From Bacteroidales bacterium (GTDB taxonomy: Bacteria; Bacteroidota; Bacteroidia; Bacteroidales; Marinilabiliaceae), in NCBI GenBank assembly GCA_003249255.1, contig QKJP01000029.1, positions 1 through 64,000 of the forward strand: a stretch of 64,000 nucleotides of DNA, written 5' to 3'. A program made the translations under genes and the position numbers. Below, in pieces: positions 4,164 through 62,971 of the stretch. Below the pieces are notes generated by a model. That model had not been told where the DNA came from. It did not search any database and was given only the letters and a program-made list of their open reading frames with translations. How positions within the stretch are numbered: the stretch's first letter is position 1; each line of letters begins with the position of its first letter.

Positions 4164-5708
4164 GTGATTCTTAAGAAGTCGAGCCTGTTAAAGGCAGCTA
4201 TCTTTGCTACCGGATTCTCCGGAGTTGTAGCAGAGTATATTTTATCTACATTAGCAACCTATTTTCTGGGAGATTCCATTTTTCAATGGATCATGATTGT
4301 ATCGCTCATGTTGTTTTCTATGGGCTTGGGAAGCCGCATTAGTAAATCGTTTAACACAAACCTTCTAAAGAAATTTTTGCTTTTAGAGTTTAGCCTTTCT
4401 GTATTAGTTTCATTCTCACCTTTACTCGTATACACTGTTGCTGCATTTAGCCAGGGATACGGATTGTTGATTTACACTTTAGCCATAGCCATAGGTATAC
4501 TCATCGGTATGGAGATTCCTTTGGTCATTCGTATTAATGATGAATTTGAAGAATTGAAGTATAACATTTCCAATATTCTTGAAAATGATTATTATGGAAG
4601 TTTATTAGGAGGCGTTTTTTATGCTTTTTTGGGTCTTCCTTTTTTAGGTTTGATGTATACGCCTTTTGTATTAGGGCTTATTAATTTGCTGGTAGCTTTT
4701 GCTTTATTGCTAAGTCTTTGGAAGGTAATGGAAGTGAAAGAACGGAAATTTATTTTGCCCTTGGGAGTTCTTATTAAAGTCGCTTTGATTTCCGGTTTCT
4801 TTATTGCTAAACCAATCATTTTGTTCGGCGAGCAGGAGAAGTATAAGGATAAAGTAATTTATACTGAGCAAACTAAGTATCAGCGCATTGTAATGACTCA
4901 GTGGGGTAAGGATTATTGGTTGTACCTAAATGGTAATCAGCAGTTGAGTACCAGGGATGAAATCATGTACCATGAACCCATCGTACATACTCCATTACAG
5001 TTGCATGGATATCCTCAAAATATCTTGGTATTAGGAGGAGGAGATGGTTGTGCTGTACGTGAAATATTAAAATATCCTTCCGTTAAAAGTATCAGGTTGG
5101 TTGATTTAGATCCGGCAATGACACGTTTAGCTATGGAGCATCCCATATTAACAGAACTTAATAAAAATTCATTGACCCATGAAAAGGTAGAGGTTTTAAA
5201 TGCAGATGGGTATAATTATATTTTAGAAGATGAAGATTTCTACGATGTAATAATTATTGATTTGCCCGATCCTCGAACCGTTGAGTTAGGGCGTTTATAT
5301 AGTTATGAGTTTTATCGAAGTTGTTATAAGCGATTACGACCTAAAGGTGTGATTATCACTCAAGGGGGTAGTCCATACTTTGCAACACGATCCTTTTTAT
5401 GTATAAACGAGACCATGAAAGAGGCTGGCTTTGTAACCGGAATGATCCACAATCAAATACTTACGATGGGAGAATGGGGTTGGATTATCGGTCAGAAAGA
5501 TGTGAGTTATGCTAATTTAAAACCTGTATTGCAGAAGCTCGATTTTAAGAATGTTGAAACCTCTTGGATAAATAATGAAGCCATGCAATTAATGACTTCA
5601 TTTGGAAAAGATATTTATCTGTGGAATAAAGATACAGTAAAGGTTAATCGAATTCATGATCCTGTATTGTATAAGTATTATTTAAAAGGAAACTGGGACT
5701 TATATTAA
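4164..5708 (+). CDS. Membrane-fused spermidine synthase-like aminopropyltransferase
   Basis: 514 residues. Residues 1-220 hold about six to seven membrane helices; residues ~230-500 are a spermidine-synthase Rossmann domain with ILVLGGGDGCAVREILKY (decarboxylated-AdoMet site), RLVDLDPAM and VIIIDLPDPR (catalytic Asp loop). The expected reaction transfers an aminopropyl group to a diamine such as putrescine at the inner membrane face. The start is a GTG (4164); no ATG gives a full first helix. A TATCTTTA box (4147-4154) lies so close that the mRNA would be nearly leaderless. It is 5 bp from the SpeD-like gene. It could use a non-standard amine; the substrate cannot be read from sequence. Confidence 0.88.
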   Translation: MILKKSSLLKAAIFATGFSGVVAEYILSTLATYFLGDSIFQWIMIVSLMLFSMGLGSRISKSFNTNLLKKFLLLEFSLSVLVSFSPLLVYTVAAFSQGYGLLIYTLAIAIGILIGMEIPLVIRINDEFEELKYNISNILENDYYGSLLGGVFYAFLGLPFLGLMYTPFVLGLINLLVAFALLLSLWKVMEVKERKFILPLGVLIKVALISGFFIAKPIILFGEQEKYKDKVIYTEQTKYQRIVMTQWGKDYWLYLNGNQQLSTRDEIMYHEPIVHTPLQLHGYPQNILVLGGGDGCAVREILKYPSVKSIRLVDLDPAMTRLAMEHPILTELNKNSLTHEKVEVLNADGYNYILEDEDFYDVIIIDLPDPRTVELGRLYSYEFYRSCYKRLRPKGVIITQGGSPYFATRSFLCINETMKEAGFVTGMIHNQILTMGEWGWIIGQKDVSYANLKPVLQKLDFKNVETSWINNEAMQLMTSFGKDIYLWNKDTVKVNRIHDPVLYKYYLKGNWDLY

Positions 5709-49889: not shown

Positions 49890-51374
49890 ATGAAGCTTAA
49901 CCTTTTGATACCATCACCTGTGGTATCTGCCTTTCTACTTGTATTTGTAACTGTTGCCAGTTGTCAAACCTCCTCCAGAAAAGCCACACAGCCAATTGAA
50001 GAGGTGAAATTACCTCAAGCGGATACCGTTTTAGAAATAGACCCGGTACAGCTTGCTGAAGTTCAGAAAAAGAACATTTCAAATAGTTCAAGCATTCAGC
50101 AGATTGAGTTTAAAGAAGTGCCAAACGTGTATCACGAAGATTCATCTTATCACATTTCAAGATATTTAACGGAAATTACCCCGGATGTTTTTCTGGAAGT
50201 TAAAAATAGGCAATTGAATCTACTTGATACGAGTGAACTAATTCTGCCCATTGATCATGTTATCAGTATTCCTACTCAAACAGGCAAGAAGCAATATGAG
50301 ATTCATACGTTTGAAGAATATGGGTACGAAGGCGTAGAGTATAAGTATGTTGGTTATTGTCCGAATGTAAAAGCACATATTCTAAGCGTTTCTTTTGCTG
50401 AAGGTTTTGGATACCGTATGGTATTTGAAGATACAGGAAAGGAGATTGTGTTAATGGAATTTCCTTATTTATCTAATGATAATCAGTTAATTGTTACGTG
50501 TCGCATTGATGGTGAAAACATTGTAATGGGTAGTTTGGAGCTAAAAAGTACTAACCCGGAAGAGCCAGATGAATTATGGGCTGCCTGGTCTGATTACACG
50601 TTTTTACCCATTGAGGCTGTTTGGGAAACGGATAGTACTTTTTTAGTTAAAGCTGAAGAGTATGAGTCTGAAGCTGCTTATTATGAGCGTGAAAAACCGG
50701 TATATAAATATGGGCGATTGTCAATCAAATTACCTTCCGCTTATGAAGTAAAGCATCAAGTAAATACTGATAATACTAAACATGCAAAGGATAGAACTTT
50801 TAACCATGTACAAGCACTCACTCTCCCTACATGTGAAGGTGTACTGGATGCACATATTAATTTTGATAAAACGTTTTGTTATCAAAATATAAAGATTGCA
50901 GTTGGTTATTATAAACCTATAGAGGGGCAAATGTCAGCCTTTGATTCTGAGTTAGATTATGGTTGGAGGTTGTTTCTTTACGATGCTCAAAATCAATTAA
51001 TCACTAAATCGAAAGGAGCAATGGGTACTTATAGTTTTAAACCATTGTTCTATACCTTAGCCGAATCTGAAGATTTATTGTGCGTGGTGCAAATGGCTTC
51101 TGAATATGATGATGGCTTAGTCTTGTATTTGTTAAATAGCAATGACTTACGTTATATAGGTGACATTGATGAGGTGGGCACCACAGATGAAAATTTATAC
51201 TTGTCTGAAGTTTTAGAAATAAATCAACAATCAGAAAGCTTGGTGTTTACTTTTAATACGGAAAAACTACTGTATTGGGAAGAGGGAAAAGGTGATGACA
51301 TGGATGAAGTTAATAGTTGTGATGTTAGTTATGTGTATGAAAATGGCAAGTTTAGATTCGTAAGTGCTTTTTAA
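49890..51374 (+). CDS. Exported lipoprotein, unknown
   Basis: 494 residues. The N-terminus is hydrophobic with a candidate lipobox VASC (Cys26, FLLVFVTVASC). The rest is acidic and beta-rich; the C-terminal half has alternating aromatic strands (YTFLPIEAVWETDSTFLVKAEEYE). No domain is recognised. It is the first gene of the AT-rich accessory stretch and ends before a terminator shared with neighbouring cassettes. Immunity or toxin-associated lipoproteins of unknown fold look similar, but that is inference only. Confidence 0.6.
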   Translation: MKLNLLIPSPVVSAFLLVFVTVASCQTSSRKATQPIEEVKLPQADTVLEIDPVQLAEVQKKNISNSSSIQQIEFKEVPNVYHEDSSYHISRYLTEITPDVFLEVKNRQLNLLDTSELILPIDHVISIPTQTGKKQYEIHTFEEYGYEGVEYKYVGYCPNVKAHILSVSFAEGFGYRMVFEDTGKEIVLMEFPYLSNDNQLIVTCRIDGENIVMGSLELKSTNPEEPDELWAAWSDYTFLPIEAVWETDSTFLVKAEEYESEAAYYEREKPVYKYGRLSIKLPSAYEVKHQVNTDNTKHAKDRTFNHVQALTLPTCEGVLDAHINFDKTFCYQNIKIAVGYYKPIEGQMSAFDSELDYGWRLFLYDAQNQLITKSKGAMGTYSFKPLFYTLAESEDLLCVVQMASEYDDGLVLYLLNSNDLRYIGDIDEVGTTDENLYLSEVLEINQQSESLVFTFNTEKLLYWEEGKGDDMDEVNSCDVSYVYENGKFRFVSAF

Positions 51375-51493: not shown

Positions 51494-52708
51494 TTAAGCA
51501 GCAATAGTGCCATAATATAATAGCTCCCTTGCCTTCTTCTGATATTTAGGTAAGTGTGGGTTTGTGCCGAACTTATCAAAAAAACAAATTCAACTGTAAG
51601 GCATTGTGGTTTATTGTTTTAACATCCGTCATTGAAAATGACTTTCTTTCTTGTTTTGGAATACTCAACCAATGTGTGCTTTTGCAATATTAATGGCAGT
51701 CAGAGAAGCGTTAAAGTGAAAGTCCAATTTTTTTTCACTTCTGGCTTGACAATCATTTAGACCTGTATGTTGCTTTCCATCGCGATATAGAAATTCAATC
51801 TGAAAACGACTTTGATAAAACTTCAGAATATCCGAAGCATTCAGGTTAATATCTGTTGAGAAATACAACTTGCAAGTCTGATTCCCCTTTTTATTGCAGT
51901 AAAGGACATGCACAACCTTTATGCAACGCTTTAAAGATATGGAATACACAATAGCACTATTAATGATGGTCTGATCATCCTTTGATACTAATTCAAAGTG
52001 TTTGCTGTCGATATTGTTATTATCAACTTTACCGTCATATTTTTTGGGTCTTCCTCTTTTACCTGTCGGCTCACCTTGATGCAAGTATCGTAGATTTGCA
52101 TCATCTCTCAATCGGTTTATCAAATGCATTTCGGCATTAATTACTCGGTCAACAAATGTGCATTTTGCAAACCATGCATCAGCAACTAAATATGAAGATA
52201 CCTCAAGTAATTGTGTTTTTCGTTCAGTTATAATATCTGCATACCAATCAGAAAGAGATTGTTCTTTATTGACCATTGTCTGTATAGCCTCTAAATGAAA
52301 GGCTGTATGATTATCTATATCAATTGCGGCAAGTCCTCCAATTTCTAGTCCCCATTTTGCGCGACTTGCACATCCTGACCAGAAATAACCGATTCCTGGT
52401 GTATGTTTGCCGGATTTGCTGATGTATGAAGGGTCGAAAGCAATTACATATTTACCACTACCATGAGCCAAGATAAATTCTTTATTGAAAGTTAAAAAGT
52501 CAAATGGTTTTTCAAATTGTTGTCGACATCTTTGTTCCTTGTACAAGCCAAAGCGCCCTAATTGTAAAAAGTTAATACGGCCTTTGATGCATAAAAATAG
52601 GATAAGAGTCTCTGTTACAAACTCTTTTCTCCATTTGTTGATATTTGGCATTTTCCCTAACGCGCTATGTATGTGTGTTTTATAAATAATATTTCCCTTG
52701 ATAGTCAC
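51494..52708 (-). pseudogene. Frameshifted IS4-type transposase
   Basis: The N-terminal 347 codons (51665-52708) encode a DDE transposase of the IS4-like group (KGRINFLQLGRFGLYKEQR, FAFDPSYISKSG, DAWFAKCTFVDRVI, FQIEFLYRDGKQHTGLNDCQ). The frame ends at TGA 51665, but the family continuation is visible in another frame (HWLSIPKQERKSFSMTDVKT), and again shifts at a run of seven T to give FDKFGTNPHLPKYQKKAREL before a TAA at 51494. So at least two single-base changes separate it from function. I could not find terminal inverted repeats. Confidence 0.88.
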
Positions 52709-56329: not shown

Positions 56330-57328
56330 TTGCTTCAGGCATTTGTATTTCTATTGGGTGTTCTAGTATTGCCTCTTGGTTTAGCATTAATATTTAAAAT
56401 AAAGCCATCTCGTAAGTTGCTTTCAAAGGCAATTATTAGAAATAATCTGTTTCGGATGGATAGATTTATTCTTAATCAAGCAGAAACGGAGGGGATATAT
56501 AAATTTCATCGGGTAGACGATGAGTTCATTATTTTTAGTAAGCCTAAGATGAAACGGAAATTAATAAAGACTCTTGTTATTTGGATGGTAATTACAATAG
56601 TGGCATTTAATGGTTTGTATGATCCCAAAACAGTTGAGATATTAGGTGTGCCAGTAGCTGCTTTACTTATTACTCTATTAATTTTCTTTCGATTTATATT
56701 GCCTGCTCCAAAACTTATTTTTGATCGTTTAAATAATAAAGTAGTTTTTAAAGGGAATTTTGTTAACCCCAGATTTAGTGCAAGTTTTGATGCTATTGAT
56801 CCTGCTTTATTATATGATGATCTGTTAGCGGTATCACATCCTATTTTTTCCTATAGTGTTTTGGCATTTGGAGAATTTAAGCAAGATACATGGAGTTTTT
56901 ATGTGCAATATATGGACAGGAATCGTCCTTTGCCGGTTGGTGATGTTTTTGATGACTATCGGGAGAAAGATTATTTGAGAAGAAAAAAAGATGGGTATCA
57001 TTCGTCACTTTATCCTTCAAGTAGCTATATATGTGAGGCCAATAGTGGCTTTGTTAATGGAACTCCCGAGTTTAAAAAGCAGTTTTCAGCTTTTACCTTA
57101 AAAATAGAAGATGCTCACCAAAGAGTGATAAAATATATTGAAAAAGATGGAAATCGGTTGGTTGATATTGATAAATTAAGGTTTACAGGTTTGTATAAGG
57201 ATAATATGGTGTTTCAGTATCAATCAGAACCAAAATATGATGATTTAAAAGTGTACAAAAGTGAAGATGAATTAAAAGGGTGTTATTTGATTCACAAGAA
57301 GAATATGACTATTAAAGTTGTATCGTAG
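56330..57328 (+). CDS. Membrane protein, paralog B of cassette region
   Basis: 332 residues from TTG; three hydrophobic stretches (~3-22, ~81-98, ~105-122) and the same conserved YMDRNRPLPVGDVFDDYREK block as at 53396. The likely native start is an ATG at 56304 (MFSKKHHSG) in another frame; losing one T in the GGTTGC region (about 56328) would separate it from the rest. This suggests a frameshift at the very start or a real TTG initiation. An AT-rich gene unlike its lipid-operon neighbour. Confidence 0.55.
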   Translation: MLQAFVFLLGVLVLPLGLALIFKIKPSRKLLSKAIIRNNLFRMDRFILNQAETEGIYKFHRVDDEFIIFSKPKMKRKLIKTLVIWMVITIVAFNGLYDPKTVEILGVPVAALLITLLIFFRFILPAPKLIFDRLNNKVVFKGNFVNPRFSASFDAIDPALLYDDLLAVSHPIFSYSVLAFGEFKQDTWSFYVQYMDRNRPLPVGDVFDDYREKDYLRRKKDGYHSSLYPSSSYICEANSGFVNGTPEFKKQFSAFTLKIEDAHQRVIKYIEKDGNRLVDIDKLRFTGLYKDNMVFQYQSEPKYDDLKVYKSEDELKGCYLIHKKNMTIKVVS

Positions 57329-57398
57329 AGGTTTTTGTGATTTATATATGATGCACAGGTTATTGTATTACGCCACTGATGCTTCTGTGAAAAAAAGC

Positions 57399-57433
57399 AC
57401 CGGCAGTTATTAAAGATACTGCCGGTTTTTTTG
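57399..57433 (+). terminator. Terminator of paralog B
   Basis: ACCGGCAGT/ACTGCCGGT stem with TATTAAAGAT loop and seven T. It is convergent with the ynb-like operon end and can serve both. Confidence 0.88.
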
Positions 57434-57441
57434 TTTAGATT

Positions 57442-59139
57442 CTATAATGTAGCTGCCGACACGGTGAAAATACCGTAATCATCAATTAACATTTCCTGCT
57501 TGTTTAAACCGGTAGAAGCAAATAGGTTATCCAGCTCATTTTGCGATCTGCGGCGCATTACCCAATCTTTGTTTTGATGGCTTTTAAGCACGTAGGCAAT
57601 GGTTTTAAGCTGTGGATGCCATGGTTGGCCGGTATAGATTACTGCTGCGTTAGGTTCTGCAATAGTAGTAAGACCATTGATGGCTTTGAGTACTTGCTCG
57701 TTGTCTTCAAATAATTCAAAAATACCTGAAACAACCACAATGTTTGGCTTGAAATTTAACTTGGCGTAATTAGCCGAATCAAAACAATCGTAATTGGTAA
57801 AACGCATGTTTTTGATGTTGTTGTCAGTCAGGTACTTTTCGCCCACTTCGATGTTTGATTTCACAAAGTCGTTGGCTACCACTTCAACCTGCGGATATTT
57901 CTTAATGATGTCGAATAAGTAGTTTCCGGTTCCTGCCGCAATGTCCAGTATTTTTACGGTTTTATTTTCTGCAAGGAGTTTTTCAATTTGAGATTCCAGC
58001 AATTGAAGTAAGTGTTGCTTACGCTTTCTGATTCCCTTCCAGCCAATGGCATTCAGGTAGTTTTTATCCATCATCTTACCAAAGCCAATTTTACCCTGCG
58101 CTTTGTTTTGGTACACATAATCCAACGAAATGCCGGAATCAAAACCGTATTCTAAGCCAATGCACATGCCTTTACTGAGCTTTCCAATTTTACCTAACGA
58201 GAATTTCTGCATGGCAAAATTTACTTTTTCATGCCAGGGGATCATTTTTAAGCTGATGCAGTCATGCTCGTCTTTGGTGAATTTTTCCGGTATGGTACAG
58301 ATTCCTTCATTCTTTATCTCGAAAGCCTGCTTTGCAAAATTCAGGATGTAATCGTACACCAGGCTTCTGTTCTGCTCAAATAAGATTCCGTGATAGAAGT
58401 CTTTTAGTAGAGTCAGTTTTTTATGCGGCGAAGAGAGTTTTAAATAAAAGTTTTTAATCACCGAATTCTTTACCACATAATCTTTTTCGGCTGCCAATAT
58501 TTGTGTCGGTATGCTGATTGCCGCAGCATCTTCCACAATGCGTTTTCCACCTTCCAGCATATCAATCAGCATACGTCCGTTTATTGATTTGGTAATCAGT
58601 TTATCTGCATCATAAGCATCCTGTTGTGTCTTGTCGTGAGTTAACACTTTGGCTTTAACATAACTTGGGACTTCCATGTTTTTGTTAAAAACGGTTCCCA
58701 TTTTGATAAAGGTTTTGGCCAGAGGTACATACAGGTTAATGTCGAAAGCTGGAGCCAATAAGGTCATTCCGGCAATTTTAGGCGCATAATCGTGAACCCA
58801 GGCCGAAACGATCATCCCGGCAATGCTGTTAGCTAATACGAATAAGTTTTGCTGCTTAATCTCGTAGTTTTGATTTAAATAGCGAACAAAAGCTTCCAGG
58901 TCACGCACGTAGTCCATAAAAACCGGTGAGATAGGCGTAGGTGTATGGCCATGGCCTCTCATGTCGTAACTAAAAATGTTGTAGGCTGCGAATCTTTGGT
59001 CAGTTGCAAATTCTTCTAATCGAGCCGAGTGTTCGTGTCCGCGATGTAAAACAAGTATTGTTTTTTTGTCTGCTTCAAAGCCCCAATGGCGATAAAACAT
59101 CTCTGAATTGTCGTAGCTAGTAAATGTTCCTGTATTCAT
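57442..59139 (-). CDS. Alpha/beta-hydrolase / SAM methyltransferase fusion (YnbC-like)
   Basis: 565 residues. N-terminal hydrolase (~1-290): LHRGHEHSARLEEFA, nucleophile Ser105 in ANSIAGM, Asp in ILAAEKDYVV and His in FYHGILFE. C-terminal class I methyltransferase (~370-565) with motif I ILDIAAGTGNYLFDII and VVANDFVKSNIEVG. The two-domain order matches E. coli YnbC. A combined acyl-ester hydrolase and methylation step on a lipid-linked substrate is plausible, but the reaction is unknown. It is the last gene of the operon; ATGA overlap with PAP2 gene. Confidence 0.9.
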   Translation of the reverse strand: MNTGTFTSYDNSEMFYRHWGFEADKKTILVLHRGHEHSARLEEFATDQRFAAYNIFSYDMRGHGHTPTPISPVFMDYVRDLEAFVRYLNQNYEIKQQNLFVLANSIAGMIVSAWVHDYAPKIAGMTLLAPAFDINLYVPLAKTFIKMGTVFNKNMEVPSYVKAKVLTHDKTQQDAYDADKLITKSINGRMLIDMLEGGKRIVEDAAAISIPTQILAAEKDYVVKNSVIKNFYLKLSSPHKKLTLLKDFYHGILFEQNRSLVYDYILNFAKQAFEIKNEGICTIPEKFTKDEHDCISLKMIPWHEKVNFAMQKFSLGKIGKLSKGMCIGLEYGFDSGISLDYVYQNKAQGKIGFGKMMDKNYLNAIGWKGIRKRKQHLLQLLESQIEKLLAENKTVKILDIAAGTGNYLFDIIKKYPQVEVVANDFVKSNIEVGEKYLTDNNIKNMRFTNYDCFDSANYAKLNFKPNIVVVSGIFELFEDNEQVLKAINGLTTIAEPNAAVIYTGQPWHPQLKTIAYVLKSHQNKDWVMRRRSQNELDNLFASTGLNKQEMLIDDYGIFTVSAATL

Positions 59140-59762
59140 TTGTTAAGATTTATTTTATTTGGAATTAGTTTAAAAATTAAAGCGACTAAAATAAGTGCTG
59201 ATAGGATATCTATTAAATGATGCTGATAAACGGTTAGGGTAGAGATGCATAAAAGCACCAACCAACCTTTTAATAGCGTTGAAATTGTTTTTTGTTTGAT
59301 AAAAGAAGCGGCCGTCCAATAAGTGCAGGCATAAGCAATGTGTAATGATGGTGCTTGATTAAATGGTGTGTCCCATTCTTTCAATTGCTGAAAAAAGAAG
59401 CTTAAACCCAGAGTCGTTACTTCCGGCTTTATAAAACTGTTTTTTAATGGAAAGAGCATGAAAAGTACACCTGATACAATGGTTAATAGGATGATGCGTT
59501 TGCTAATGAGCATCAATTGCTCCCTGGTTTCACAAAAGTAAAAAGACAGGAGGAATAAGCAACCACTGCTCATGTAAGGAATTATCATCCAGGAGGTAAA
59601 TGGTATCAATCGTTCAAAATCAAAAGCAACTGAAGGTACGTCGTTTAAGCCCTGTGCATATTTGCCGGTGTTGTAATAAATTACGGCAAATAACAGGTAG
59701 CTAATGGCCAGCCAGATACTTTTTTGAAGTAAAGATGCTTTATTGCTTACTGTTGCCTGCAT
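59136..59762 (-). CDS. PAP2-family membrane phosphatase (YnbD-like)
   Basis: About 208 residues from MQATVSNKASLL; an in-frame start 14 codons earlier would extend deeper into the SDR gene. Several membrane helices (about five to six) and the PAP2 motifs PSLHIAYACTYW and VYQHHLIDI (H...HH...D) of the inositol-phosphorylceramide-synthase-like branch. It should remove or exchange a lipid phosphate. It lacks the extra dual-specificity domain of E. coli YnbD. It overlaps both neighbours. Confidence 0.85.
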   Translation of the reverse strand: MQATVSNKASLLQKSIWLAISYLLFAVIYYNTGKYAQGLNDVPSVAFDFERLIPFTSWMIIPYMSSGCLFLLSFYFCETREQLMLISKRIILLTIVSGVLFMLFPLKNSFIKPEVTTLGLSFFFQQLKEWDTPFNQAPSLHIAYACTYWTAASFIKQKTISTLLKGWLVLLCISTLTVYQHHLIDILSALILVALIFKLIPNKINLNK

Positions 59763-60505
59763 GCGTGTTGTTTTTGTTTGGACATTATCAAACTCAGAAG
59801 CCACTTGGGTAGTACAGAAAGAAAAGTCATCAGGTATTTCATCTTAGGTGGAAAGATGATGACGTCCTTCTTTTTTTCAATGGCGTTGGTAATAATGGCA
59901 ACAGCTTCATGGCAGCTTAGCAGGAACATCTTTTTCGATAAATCATTATTATTCAGACTTCTCAGTTTAAGCGTGTCTACATAGCCGGGCATAACGGCCG
60001 TTACCCAAATGCCAAACGGCGCTAAAGCGGTTCGGTAAGCATCGCACATTTGAACATTTGCCCGTTTTGATTTGGTATAAACCGTTGCTTTGGGATAATC
60101 TAGCAGGGATGATACTGAAGCAATTGAAACCAGATGGCCTTTTTTATTGCGATGCATGCATGCTCTTGCAGCTTCAAAGGCATTAATCATCCCAATCATG
60201 TTCACCTTTAGCATATTGGTGCACTCTTCATAGTCCGGTCCGTTGGATAATTCATTGTAATAATGTCCGGCAGATGCAATCAATAGATCTAAATGTTCGC
60301 CTTGGCAAAAGTTATTTAGAGCAGATTGCAAATCTGTTTTGGTATAGACATCTAATTGATAGGCTTGTAATTGAGCTTCAATAAGAGCGGCGTTTATTTT
60401 AGAAATGTCACGTCCGCAAACACCTACTTTATGCCCGTTATTTATATAATACTCAGCCAAGGCGAGTCCAATGCCTGAGGTTCCTCCGGTTATAAATACA
60501 TTCAT
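59747..60505 (-). CDS. Short-chain dehydrogenase/reductase
   Basis: 252 residues. The Rossmann start TGGTSGIGLALAEYY binds NAD(P), with catalytic Ser and YTKSK in SIASVSSLLDYPKATVYTKSK. The C-terminal part VIIFPPKMKYLMTFLSVLPKWLLSLIM is hydrophobic and may associate with the membrane. Members of this SDR group act on ketone or hydroxyl lipids such as 3-ketodihydrosphingosine, but the substrate is not provable here. It overlaps the patatin-like gene by ATGA and the PAP2 gene by 16 bp. Confidence 0.88.
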   Translation of the reverse strand: MNVFITGGTSGIGLALAEYYINNGHKVGVCGRDISKINAALIEAQLQAYQLDVYTKTDLQSALNNFCQGEHLDLLIASAGHYYNELSNGPDYEECTNMLKVNMIGMINAFEAARACMHRNKKGHLVSIASVSSLLDYPKATVYTKSKRANVQMCDAYRTALAPFGIWVTAVMPGYVDTLKLRSLNNNDLSKKMFLLSCHEAVAIITNAIEKKKDVIIFPPKMKYLMTFLSVLPKWLLSLIMSKQKQHACRQQ

Positions 60506-61545
60506 GGTTTTAAGCTGTTTTTAACTTTGTTATAGCCATAAGCCCATTGCACTTCCATGTCTTTTTTAAACTTTAGGTGGCTTTGTGGCAATGTGATGTT
60601 GACTTTAAACTTTGTCCACTCAATGTATTTTTTGACATAATGATTTTGTAATTCTTTTTCGATTGATCTTGTGTCAATACTATGATTTACAAGTGTATTG
60701 TTGATCTCTCCCAAACGCTCGTTTCCACTAAAACCAAATACCGACCTGACCAAAGCCTCTTCAACCCGGCTGTAACTTTGTTTTTGTTCCATAATGATGG
60801 TATCACCAAGGGCTTGGCTAAGTTCTAGTGGAACCAAATCAATTGCTCCTCCCAGGTAATGTTGCCCATTATATTGAGCCGGTTGCATGTAAAACATATC
60901 TGATATGGATATGCGCATGGCCATTGGTACTGTTATGTCACTTATAATTTTGGTTTGAGGATGAATGGCCGTGTTTTTATAACTTTCAGACTGGATGTTG
61001 ATTTTTTCTAAGTCAATGTTTGCTGCTGTTTCCGGATCGGTAAATAATACCTTTTGATACAGAGCTTTTCCATTTCTGGCATGGCCAACTTGGTTTTTCG
61101 AAAACAATAATTCCGACCCGATAAAGACCGATTTTATATTGGTGTTAAACGACATAGACAGGGAAGGCAGTTGTTTAGATAAGTCATTGGGCATATTCAC
61201 AATGAAGTTATCAAATACATTTTCAATGGTGGGAGCCTTTTCTTTATTAAAGACCTTCTGTAAGCAATACCAACCTATTTTATCAAGTCTGCTGTGTTGA
61301 GTTAATCTTTCAGTTTTTACAAAATTGAAAAATTCATCGGATTGTAAATATGCTTTTCGTTGGGCGTTATTCGAGAAGGAATTGATGATAGCCGTAGAAA
61401 TGGCTCCTCCACAAGTGGCAATTACCACATCCGGTTTTATGCCAAGGTCTTCCATCGCTGCATACATACCCACATAACTGGCAAAGCGTGTACCACCACC
61501 TGAAAAGATGGCTATCGGTTTTTTATTTCCGTTAATCCGACTCAT
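60502..61545 (-). CDS. Patatin-like protein with altered catalytic site
   Basis: 347 residues from MSRINGNKK; the ATG overlaps the stop of the CdsA-like gene in ATGA, which decides the start. Patatin fold: oxyanion loop SGGGTR (15-20), nucleophile region ATCGGAIS, where the usual Ser of G-x-S-x-G is Cys45, and YLGGAIDLVPLEL, where the catalytic Asp of D-G-(G/A) is replaced by Leu. Both dyad residues are therefore missing, so it is a pseudoenzyme or acts by a Cys-based mechanism. It lies in the middle of the lipid operon. Confidence 0.88.
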   Translation of the reverse strand: MSRINGNKKPIAIFSGGGTRFASYVGMYAAMEDLGIKPDVVIATCGGAISTAIINSFSNNAQRKAYLQSDEFFNFVKTERLTQHSRLDKIGWYCLQKVFNKEKAPTIENVFDNFIVNMPNDLSKQLPSLSMSFNTNIKSVFIGSELLFSKNQVGHARNGKALYQKVLFTDPETAANIDLEKINIQSESYKNTAIHPQTKIISDITVPMAMRISISDMFYMQPAQYNGQHYLGGAIDLVPLELSQALGDTIIMEQKQSYSRVEEALVRSVFGFSGNERLGEINNTLVNHSIDTRSIEKELQNHYVKKYIEWTKFKVNITLPQSHLKFKKDMEVQWAYGYNKVKNSLKP

Positions 61546-62372
61546 AATAAGGTGTTTAGTAAGATATAGCAAACAGGTAGCACAAAGGTTAAACTGTCAA
61601 TGCGATCAAGTAATCCACCATGACCGGGTATTAATGATCCAAAATCTTTTACACCAGCATCTCTTTTGATAGATGACAAATAAACATCTCCTGCAAACCC
61701 CAATGTACTTATGATTAAACCTAAAAAGGTGTATTGGATGATGTTGTAGCCAGTTAATAAAAAGGGACCTAAGCTATTCGCCAGGATGATACTTAAAAGG
61801 ATGCCACCCAGTAGGCCTTCCTGTGTTTTATTCGGACTTATTTTGGGGACGATTTGTTTTTTACCAAATAGTTTACCTGATAAATACTGAAATACGTCGT
61901 TTAATTGGGTGGTAACAAGTATAAATAAGACCACTTTAATGCCAAACCAAGGGTTAGTTTCGATATTAAAATAGCGAATAAACAATAGGTGGCCAATGGG
62001 AAAGGTGCAGAGTATTATCCCGGTAAGGATATTTTTTGACAGTAATCGGTTTTTGTAACGTAAGTGGGTAATGGCAGAAAGTATTATTGCGTATAAAGGT
62101 ATGGAAACTACAAAGAGCTTATAGTTGTTGAGGTATCCAGTCGATAACAACAATAGTACCGCAGGATAGCATAAATAACTCAGGCTATTTGTCTTTAAAT
62201 CAATAATTCTAAAATATTCGTGTAACGCCCTGGCAGACATGCTACCAACAAAGAGAAGCGTTAGCAAAGGATGTAAGAGCCCAATGGATAGAATTATGAT
62301 AATAATCCCCCAGCTTCGAACCCTAATAGGTACATCGGCAAATTTATTGGTGTTTGTTACCTGGGTGTTCAT
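61542..62372 (-). CDS. Phosphatidate cytidylyltransferase-like (YnbB-like)
   Basis: 276 residues, about eight membrane helices. The CdsA signature is complete: [31 protein letters not shown] and [32 protein letters not shown]. It should make a CDP-activated lipid from CTP. It is separate from any general cdsA and matches the second gene of the E. coli ynb operon. Translational coupling at both ends (ATGA overlaps). Confidence 0.92.
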   Translation of the reverse strand: [276 protein letters not shown]

Positions 62373-62971
62373 AGCGCCTTTAAGGTCTTAGTAACGCGTA
62401 CAATGGTACTAAGGATTAGCAAAGTACATAAGATTGAAAAGATCCATGAGGAATAAGTAGAAAGGTTAACGCCTGTATAGCAAAGTATTCCATAAATGCC
62501 CAGTAATAAAGCCCGGTCACTTTTGCCCATGGGACCTTCGTAACGCCGTTCGTCGGAAATAACTTTTCCCATGATGCCTGCAAATTCGTTAACAGGGCTA
62601 AGTGCAATGAATAAAACAACCGGAAAAATGGCTTCGGGCTGGAATTTTATGAGTGGGAAGAAAACGAATAAATCAGATACAACATCGCCGAGTTCATTGT
62701 ATAATTCTCCTTTTTTTGAGATTTGGTTAAACTGCCTGGCCATCATTCCATCTAAAGCATTTAAGGCCATCCTTAACAATAAACCAATGGGAAGAGCTAA
62801 GTAGAACAAAGGATTTTGATCTGCAAACCAAAATAAAACTCCAATGAGAAATGAAAAGAAAAAAGCACTTATGGTTATTTGGTTGGCAGTAACCTTGTTG
62901 CGATTAAGAAAAAGTAGGATAGGGTGTAAAGTCCTCTGAAACCAGGGTTTAATCTTGTAAACTGAGATCAT
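62369..62971 (-). CDS. CDP-alcohol phosphatidyltransferase-like (YnbA-like)
   Basis: 200 residues, about six membrane helices. The CDP-alcohol motif D-xx-DG-xx-AR-(8)-G-xxx-D-xxx-D appears as N71-AL-D74-GMMAR...G88-ELY-N92-ELG-D96, so two of the four Asp residues are Asn. Length and the NELGD variant fit E. coli YnbA. It should join a CDP-lipid and an alcohol headgroup, though the altered metal site may change chemistry. It starts the six-gene operon; no other gene precedes it on this strand. Confidence 0.85.
   Translation of the reverse strand: MISVYKIKPWFQRTLHPILLFLNRNKVTANQITISAFFFSFLIGVLFWFADQNPLFYLALPIGLLLRMALNALDGMMARQFNQISKKGELYNELGDVVSDLFVFFPLIKFQPEAIFPVVLFIALSPVNEFAGIMGKVISDERRYEGPMGKSDRALLLGIYGILCYTGVNLSTYSSWIFSILCTLLILSTIVRVTKTLKAL

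Follow-up and report, generated by a model that had tools for sequence, protein, structure and literature searches.

The closest described relatives of the operon analysed here are ynbA, ynbB, ynbC and ynbD of Escherichia coli K-12, which adjoin one another and for which no function was found in the papers searched. Overproduction of E. coli YnbB leads to more MPIase, and YnbB, although a paralogue of CdsA, is unable to replace it (PMC6362211). YnbD replaces neither the PGP phosphatase nor the C55-PP phosphatase (PMC7413402), so it probably acts on another substrate than PGP or C55-PP, and the old annotation of YnbA as a cholinephosphotransferase has been withdrawn by EcoCyc (PMC3781023).

A variant of the ynb genes in a single operon

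In the window, which is the whole 64,000-nucleotide stretch of DNA analysed, six reading frames run along the minus strand from 62971 to 57442, all of them open and with every junction overlapping. They and the terminator that follows are:

62369..62971, minus strand: YnbA homologue with a CDP-alcohol phosphotransferase fold, 200 aa (Pfam PF01066, motif, model)
61542..62372, minus strand: YnbB homologue, CdsA-like cytidylyltransferase, 276 aa (PF01148, tree)
60502..61545, minus strand: patatin-like protein, 347 aa (PF01734, alignment to PlpD)
59747..60505, minus strand: short-chain dehydrogenase/reductase (SDR), 252 aa (PF00106)
59136..59762, minus strand: PAP2-type membrane phosphatase/phosphotransferase, 208 aa with an ATG start (PF14378, weak)
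57442..59139, minus strand: YnbC homologue, fusion of an alpha/beta hydrolase and Methyltransf_20, 565 aa (PF12146 and PF12147)
57390..57426, minus strand: intrinsic terminator past the last gene (read directly from the sequence)

Counted on the sequence, the overlaps are 4, 4, 4, 16 and 4 bp, assuming ATG starts at 61545 for the patatin-like gene and at 59762 for the PAP2 gene; with these starts, the first-pass annotation was correct in describing six minus-strand genes with 4-bp overlaps at four junctions and 16 bp at the fifth. The domain contents it had stated were also confirmed by Pfam for all six genes (CDP-OH_P_transf, CTP_transf_1, Patatin, adh_short, PAP2_3, and Hydrolase_4 with Methyltransf_20), the PAP2_3 score being just over the cut-off. 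The terminator lies directly after the ynbC homologue (57426-57390) and reads ACCGGCAG...CTGCCGGT followed by T7; it was read directly from the sequence, and its loop of 12 nt is above the 8-nt limit of the automated terminator scan. Given the overlaps at every junction and the intrinsic terminator, the six genes look like a single transcription unit. The sites returned by a consensus promoter scan were no more numerous than in shuffles. That the products form a "stoichiometric" pathway, as had been predicted from this tight coupling, does not follow from 4-bp overlaps. Beside the operon, a 332-aa protein (56330-57328) lacks any Pfam match; by eye it looks similar to a longer protein (L060, 4399-5634) located beyond the operon of another locus.

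The window YnbA, YnbB and YnbC are homologous to their E. coli counterparts over nearly the whole length, and the PAP2 protein is homologous to the first (N-terminal) half of YnbD, with 36% identity. The content had been said to equal the E. coli ynbABCD set: the four genes are indeed true relatives, but the sets are not identical. The E. coli order is A-B-C-D, whereas here it is A-B-patatin-SDR-PAP2-C, and YnbD combines PAP2 with a dual-specificity phosphatase domain, whereas the window protein consists of PAP2 alone in its 208 aa. The Cys-patatin and the SDR described below are absent from the E. coli set and were rightly regarded as additions; they recur together on a Moraxella plasmid. With linked homologues of YnbA, YnbB and YnbC, and lacking both the A-B-C-D order and the dual-specificity phosphatase domain, the operon counts as a new version of the ynb module.

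Active sites of the encoded proteins

The standard motif of CDP-alcohol phosphotransferases is D1xxD2G..AR..G..D3..D4. In MtPIPS, two metals are bound by the four residues D68, D71, D89 and D93, the last of which (D4) has been proposed to act as the base (PMC6506517, PMC4634129). The corresponding motif of the window YnbA is N71xxD74G..A..G88xxxN92xxxD96, with Asn in place of Asp1 and Asp3. All 18 full-length YnbA compared have Asn at these two positions and retain Asp2 and Asp4, and the E. coli protein carries the same Asn/Asn motif. The window YnbA is 35-42% identical to aligned YnbA from other phyla and 46-56% identical to those of its own phylum. Asn also occupies both positions in three divergent CDP-alcohol phosphotransferases encoded beside YnbB, in Vibrio, in a planctomycete and in a record under the title Kuenenia, as opposed to D/D in the other CDP-alcohol phosphotransferases of the phylum found with the same profile (21 of 21 readable motifs, that is, those matched by a regular expression; several loci gave no readable motif). 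On this partition, the Asn/Asn pair marks a distinct line of enzymes, a signature for which literature searches found no describing paper. YnbA shares the CDP-alcohol phosphotransferase fold (PF01066 is above its cut-off) and not the canonical four-Asp active site; with two of its four metal ligands replaced, it could be inactive or could carry out another reaction. Its AlphaFold model (pLDDT 77, with three sequences in the alignment), which bears on the fold and not on residue assignments, is nearest to PIP synthases, with TM up to 0.79 and Z of about 18-19 (for PIP synthase 5d92, Z 19.2 and 2.8 A over 191 residues).

The acceptor site offers a second comparison with these enzymes. R155 and R195 of MtPIPS bind the phosphate of inositol phosphate, with S132 and K135 near it (PMC4634129). 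In a sequence-profile alignment, the two arginines correspond to R153 and R192 of YnbA, which are invariant in the 18 sequences; S132, Y133, K135 and R137 align with positions 132, 133, 135 and 137 of YnbA, where residues are small, hydrophobic or variable and the inositol-contacting residues of the Mycobacterial and Renibacterium phosphatidylinositol-phosphate synthases are not kept. YnbA shares with these synthases the fold and the two predicted acceptor-phosphate arginines, but they keep the metal-ligand Asp, two of which are Asn in YnbA. No match to an inositol-1-phosphate synthase was found in the window genome, the E. coli control being also without one. The conserved phosphate arginines, the lost inositol contacts and the missing synthase point to an acceptor that is probably a phosphorylated alcohol, but not inositol phosphate. 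An inositol lipid pathway was rejected on the absence of the synthase from the genome, and PG synthesis through PGP was rejected because E. coli YnbD fails to complement the PGP phosphatase (PMC7413402).

The window YnbB carries near its C-terminus the complete CDP-DAG synthase signature (SxxKRxxxxKDxGxxxPGHGGxxDRxD). In a tree of 14 proteins, for which the tool gave a long-branch warning, it groups with YnbB, apart from the E. coli CdsA and from that of its own genome (support 96/96), a separate housekeeping CdsA being encoded elsewhere. In the PAP2 protein, the phosphatase catalytic residues H141, H182 and D185 are invariant in six sequences. YnbC consists of a monoacylglycerol-lipase-like alpha/beta hydrolase half fused to Methyltransf_20; S105, D220, H250 and the SAM-site residues are invariant in eight sequences. 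The SDR has intact TGGTSGIG and YTKSK motifs, which conform to the classical TGxxxGxG and YxxxK, and is 40% identical to its Moraxella counterpart, with a segment LRSLNN in both. The methylation, reduction and dephosphorylation steps proposed by the first-pass annotation thus have matching domains in these proteins, from which the steps themselves are extrapolated.

The patatin-like protein is altered in its catalytic motifs. Its Pfam patatin domain scores 44.5 bits against a cut-off of 27.7, but the nucleophilic Ser, found in GTSMGA in PlpD, is replaced by Cys45 (ATCGGA; ASCGGA in Moraxella), and the catalytic Asp of DGG is replaced by Leu in the window protein, the residue being Leu or Met in the window and Moraxella proteins, which are 30% identical. 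As neither has the GxSxG Ser and DGG Asp dyad of patatin-like phospholipases, ordinary patatin hydrolysis is unlikely and the gene is not to be taken for one of a usual lipase; to judge from these substitutions, the protein may form a Cys acyl-enzyme or may have a role other than catalysis. A profile of the pair found otherwise weak, N-terminal matches in 395 genomes of the phylum. A structure model of the window patatin from sequence alone had a pLDDT of 30 and was left out of the analysis.

Related loci, constant core and probable mobility

A scan of genome contigs for YnbB gave six named loci, some adjoined only by a divergent YnbA. Among the loci examined in detail, the order is A-B-PlsC-C-D-small protein in Citrobacter, and the same kinds of genes are found rearranged in Rhizobium, Shinella and Burkholderia. 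Pseudanabaena has A-B-PlsC-methyltransferase, Caballeronia has A, PlsC and B, and Fusobacterium has C-A-B. The locus of Moraxella osloensis pNP7-2 (NZ_CP024445.1) matches the window in content, with the Cys-patatin and the SDR among its six gene kinds; however, instead of one contiguous operon it forms two convergent halves in another order, with A, C, patatin and SDR on one strand and B and PAP2 on the opposite one. An in-frame stop interrupts its ynbC (L040, 7983-9752), and ynbB is separated from PAP2 by a transposase gene, so that the cluster on this plasmid seems to be in decay. The association of patatin and SDR nevertheless holds in this second lineage, and no PlsC match was found at either of the two loci that have the pair, the window and Moraxella.

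Six other genomes of the phylum carry A-B-PlsC modules, with an adjacent YnbB and with a PlsC acyltransferase where the window has patatin and SDR; neither YnbC nor PAP2 was found at these loci. Nor was a PAP2 gene found at the Fusobacterium locus. Dephosphorylation is therefore not an invariable step, and YnbC is not a fixed component of the module either. In two of the same-phylum genomes, a protein of roughly 265 aa is encoded next to the ynbA-ynbB-plsC core (L107, 7211-7996; L108, 4036-4848). The two resemble each other by eye, neither has a Pfam match, and the gene of one overlaps ynbA by 4 bp. In L108, plsC is followed by a 115-aa membrane protein (4876-5223), also without a Pfam match, which resembles by eye flippases of the small multidrug-resistance type. 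At the loci compared, ynbA and ynbB occur together in several phyla, mostly with a PlsC-type acyltransferase, and ynbC, PAP2, patatin and SDR are present at some sampled loci and absent at others; at the loci of E. coli K-12 and Fusobacterium, PlsC is missing and so are patatin and SDR. From this sampling, the constant core appears to be ynbA-ynbB, mostly with plsC. A unit of six co-occurring genes, as the first-pass annotation had envisaged, was thus borne out in part: the genes are linked across phyla and not simply scattered, but this core alone is constant.

Within its own lineage the operon is isolated. Searches of 395 genomes from the phylum, which gene content suggests to be Bacteroidota, and of 247 from the order gave a full-length match to Methyltransf_20 in the window genome alone, with weak and partial matches otherwise, and among 71 genomes of the family YnbA was found in the window genome alone, except for one weak relative with the canonical motif. 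Four genomes of the same family have a counterpart, 71-78% identical, of a gene that lies 10 kb from the operon, which indicates that the contig is native; with the operon confined to this genome within the family, horizontal acquisition is the simplest explanation, and the operon was probably acquired in that way. Another test gene, at 49890-51374, is an orphan within the family. The operon genes have a GC3 of 0.36-0.44, a little above the value for the remaining genes tested in the window (0.329, sd 0.043). A gene encoding DDE transposase domains at 51665-52708, some 5 kb away from the operon, may mark a mobile context. YnbC homologues on plasmid records include those of Shinella, Rhizobium, Sinorhizobium, Escherichia, Citrobacter, Burkholderia, Moraxella and one record of Fusobacterium vincentii, whose "plasmid" pSB055A (L039) spans 2.1 Mb and is probably a mislabelled chromosome. 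Assembly contamination was rejected in view of the 287-kb contig, the neighbour gene 78% identical in same-family genomes and a GC like that of its neighbours. A phage role was rejected because tblastn searches for YnbC found nothing in the phage collection or in viral contigs, as was a defence role, for which PADLOC gave one weak methyltransferase match only.

Proposed pathway and alternatives

We propose that the operon is a variant, acquired horizontally, of a ynbAB(plsC)CD lipid module and encodes a side branch in the synthesis of phospholipid head groups, and give this reading a probability of about 0.5. YnbB would make CDP-activated diacylglycerol, and YnbA would move the phosphatidyl group onto a small phosphorylated alcohol, not inositol phosphate, through its Asn-substituted metal site. 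The PAP2 protein would then take off a phosphate, and YnbC would both methylate the head group, or else an intermediate, and trim an acyl chain. The Cys-patatin and SDR would stand in for the PlsC that most relatives have, changing either the acyl or the alcohol part. All these reactions, their order and the product are what we infer from the observed homology, linkage, motifs and single-operon anatomy. A membrane lipid pathway, suggested on first inspection, is thus plausible for genes linked across phyla, its exact chemistry being conjectural.

It is unlikely that these proteins make no new lipid and serve instead in remodelling or salvage, with the hydrolase, patatin, PAP2 and YnbB recycling lysolipids and head groups. 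The YnbC hydrolase half is closest to monoacylglycerol lipases, and acyltransferase or acyl-hydrolase-like genes lie beside ynbAB at most loci, as such a function would have it; the SAM-methyltransferase domain and the conserved phosphatidyltransferase nevertheless fit synthesis better, and the patatin is without its lipase residues. Less likely again is the production of an MPIase-like pyrophosphate-linked glycolipid, in which YnbB would make GlcNAc-PP-diacylglycerol from CDP-DAG and the other proteins would trim or modify it. YnbB overproduction raises MPIase, and CdsA and YnbB have been proposed to make GlcNAc-PP-DAG, but deletion of ynbB barely alters MPIase (PMC6362211). Moreover, a glycosyltransferase among the linked genes was seen only beside the Caballeronia copy, and YnbA would be left without a clear task.

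The differences in gene content and order among lineages, the sporadic occurrence of the operon and its relatives on plasmids could also be the outcome of a chance assembly of mobile lipid genes, co-transcribed without a common product. We consider this the least probable of the alternatives, since Moraxella and the window have six gene kinds in common, four core genes are linked in several phyla and tight overlaps are found at five of the five junctions.

Beyond the operon itself, the side-branch reading can be extended, tentatively and with considerable doubt, to the wider family: YnbA and YnbB, usually with PlsC, may constitute an undescribed head-group branch with an Asn metal site in many phyla, including E. 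coli K-12, in which case the Cys-patatin of the window would be an acyltransferase that replaces PlsC. The strongest new handles on this system are the Asn/Asn signature, the two arginines and the Cys-patatin; the signature and the arginines, together with the portable core, make testable predictions on acceptor and product. Because the module is present in E. coli K-12, it could reveal a lipid class missed in the best-studied bacterium.
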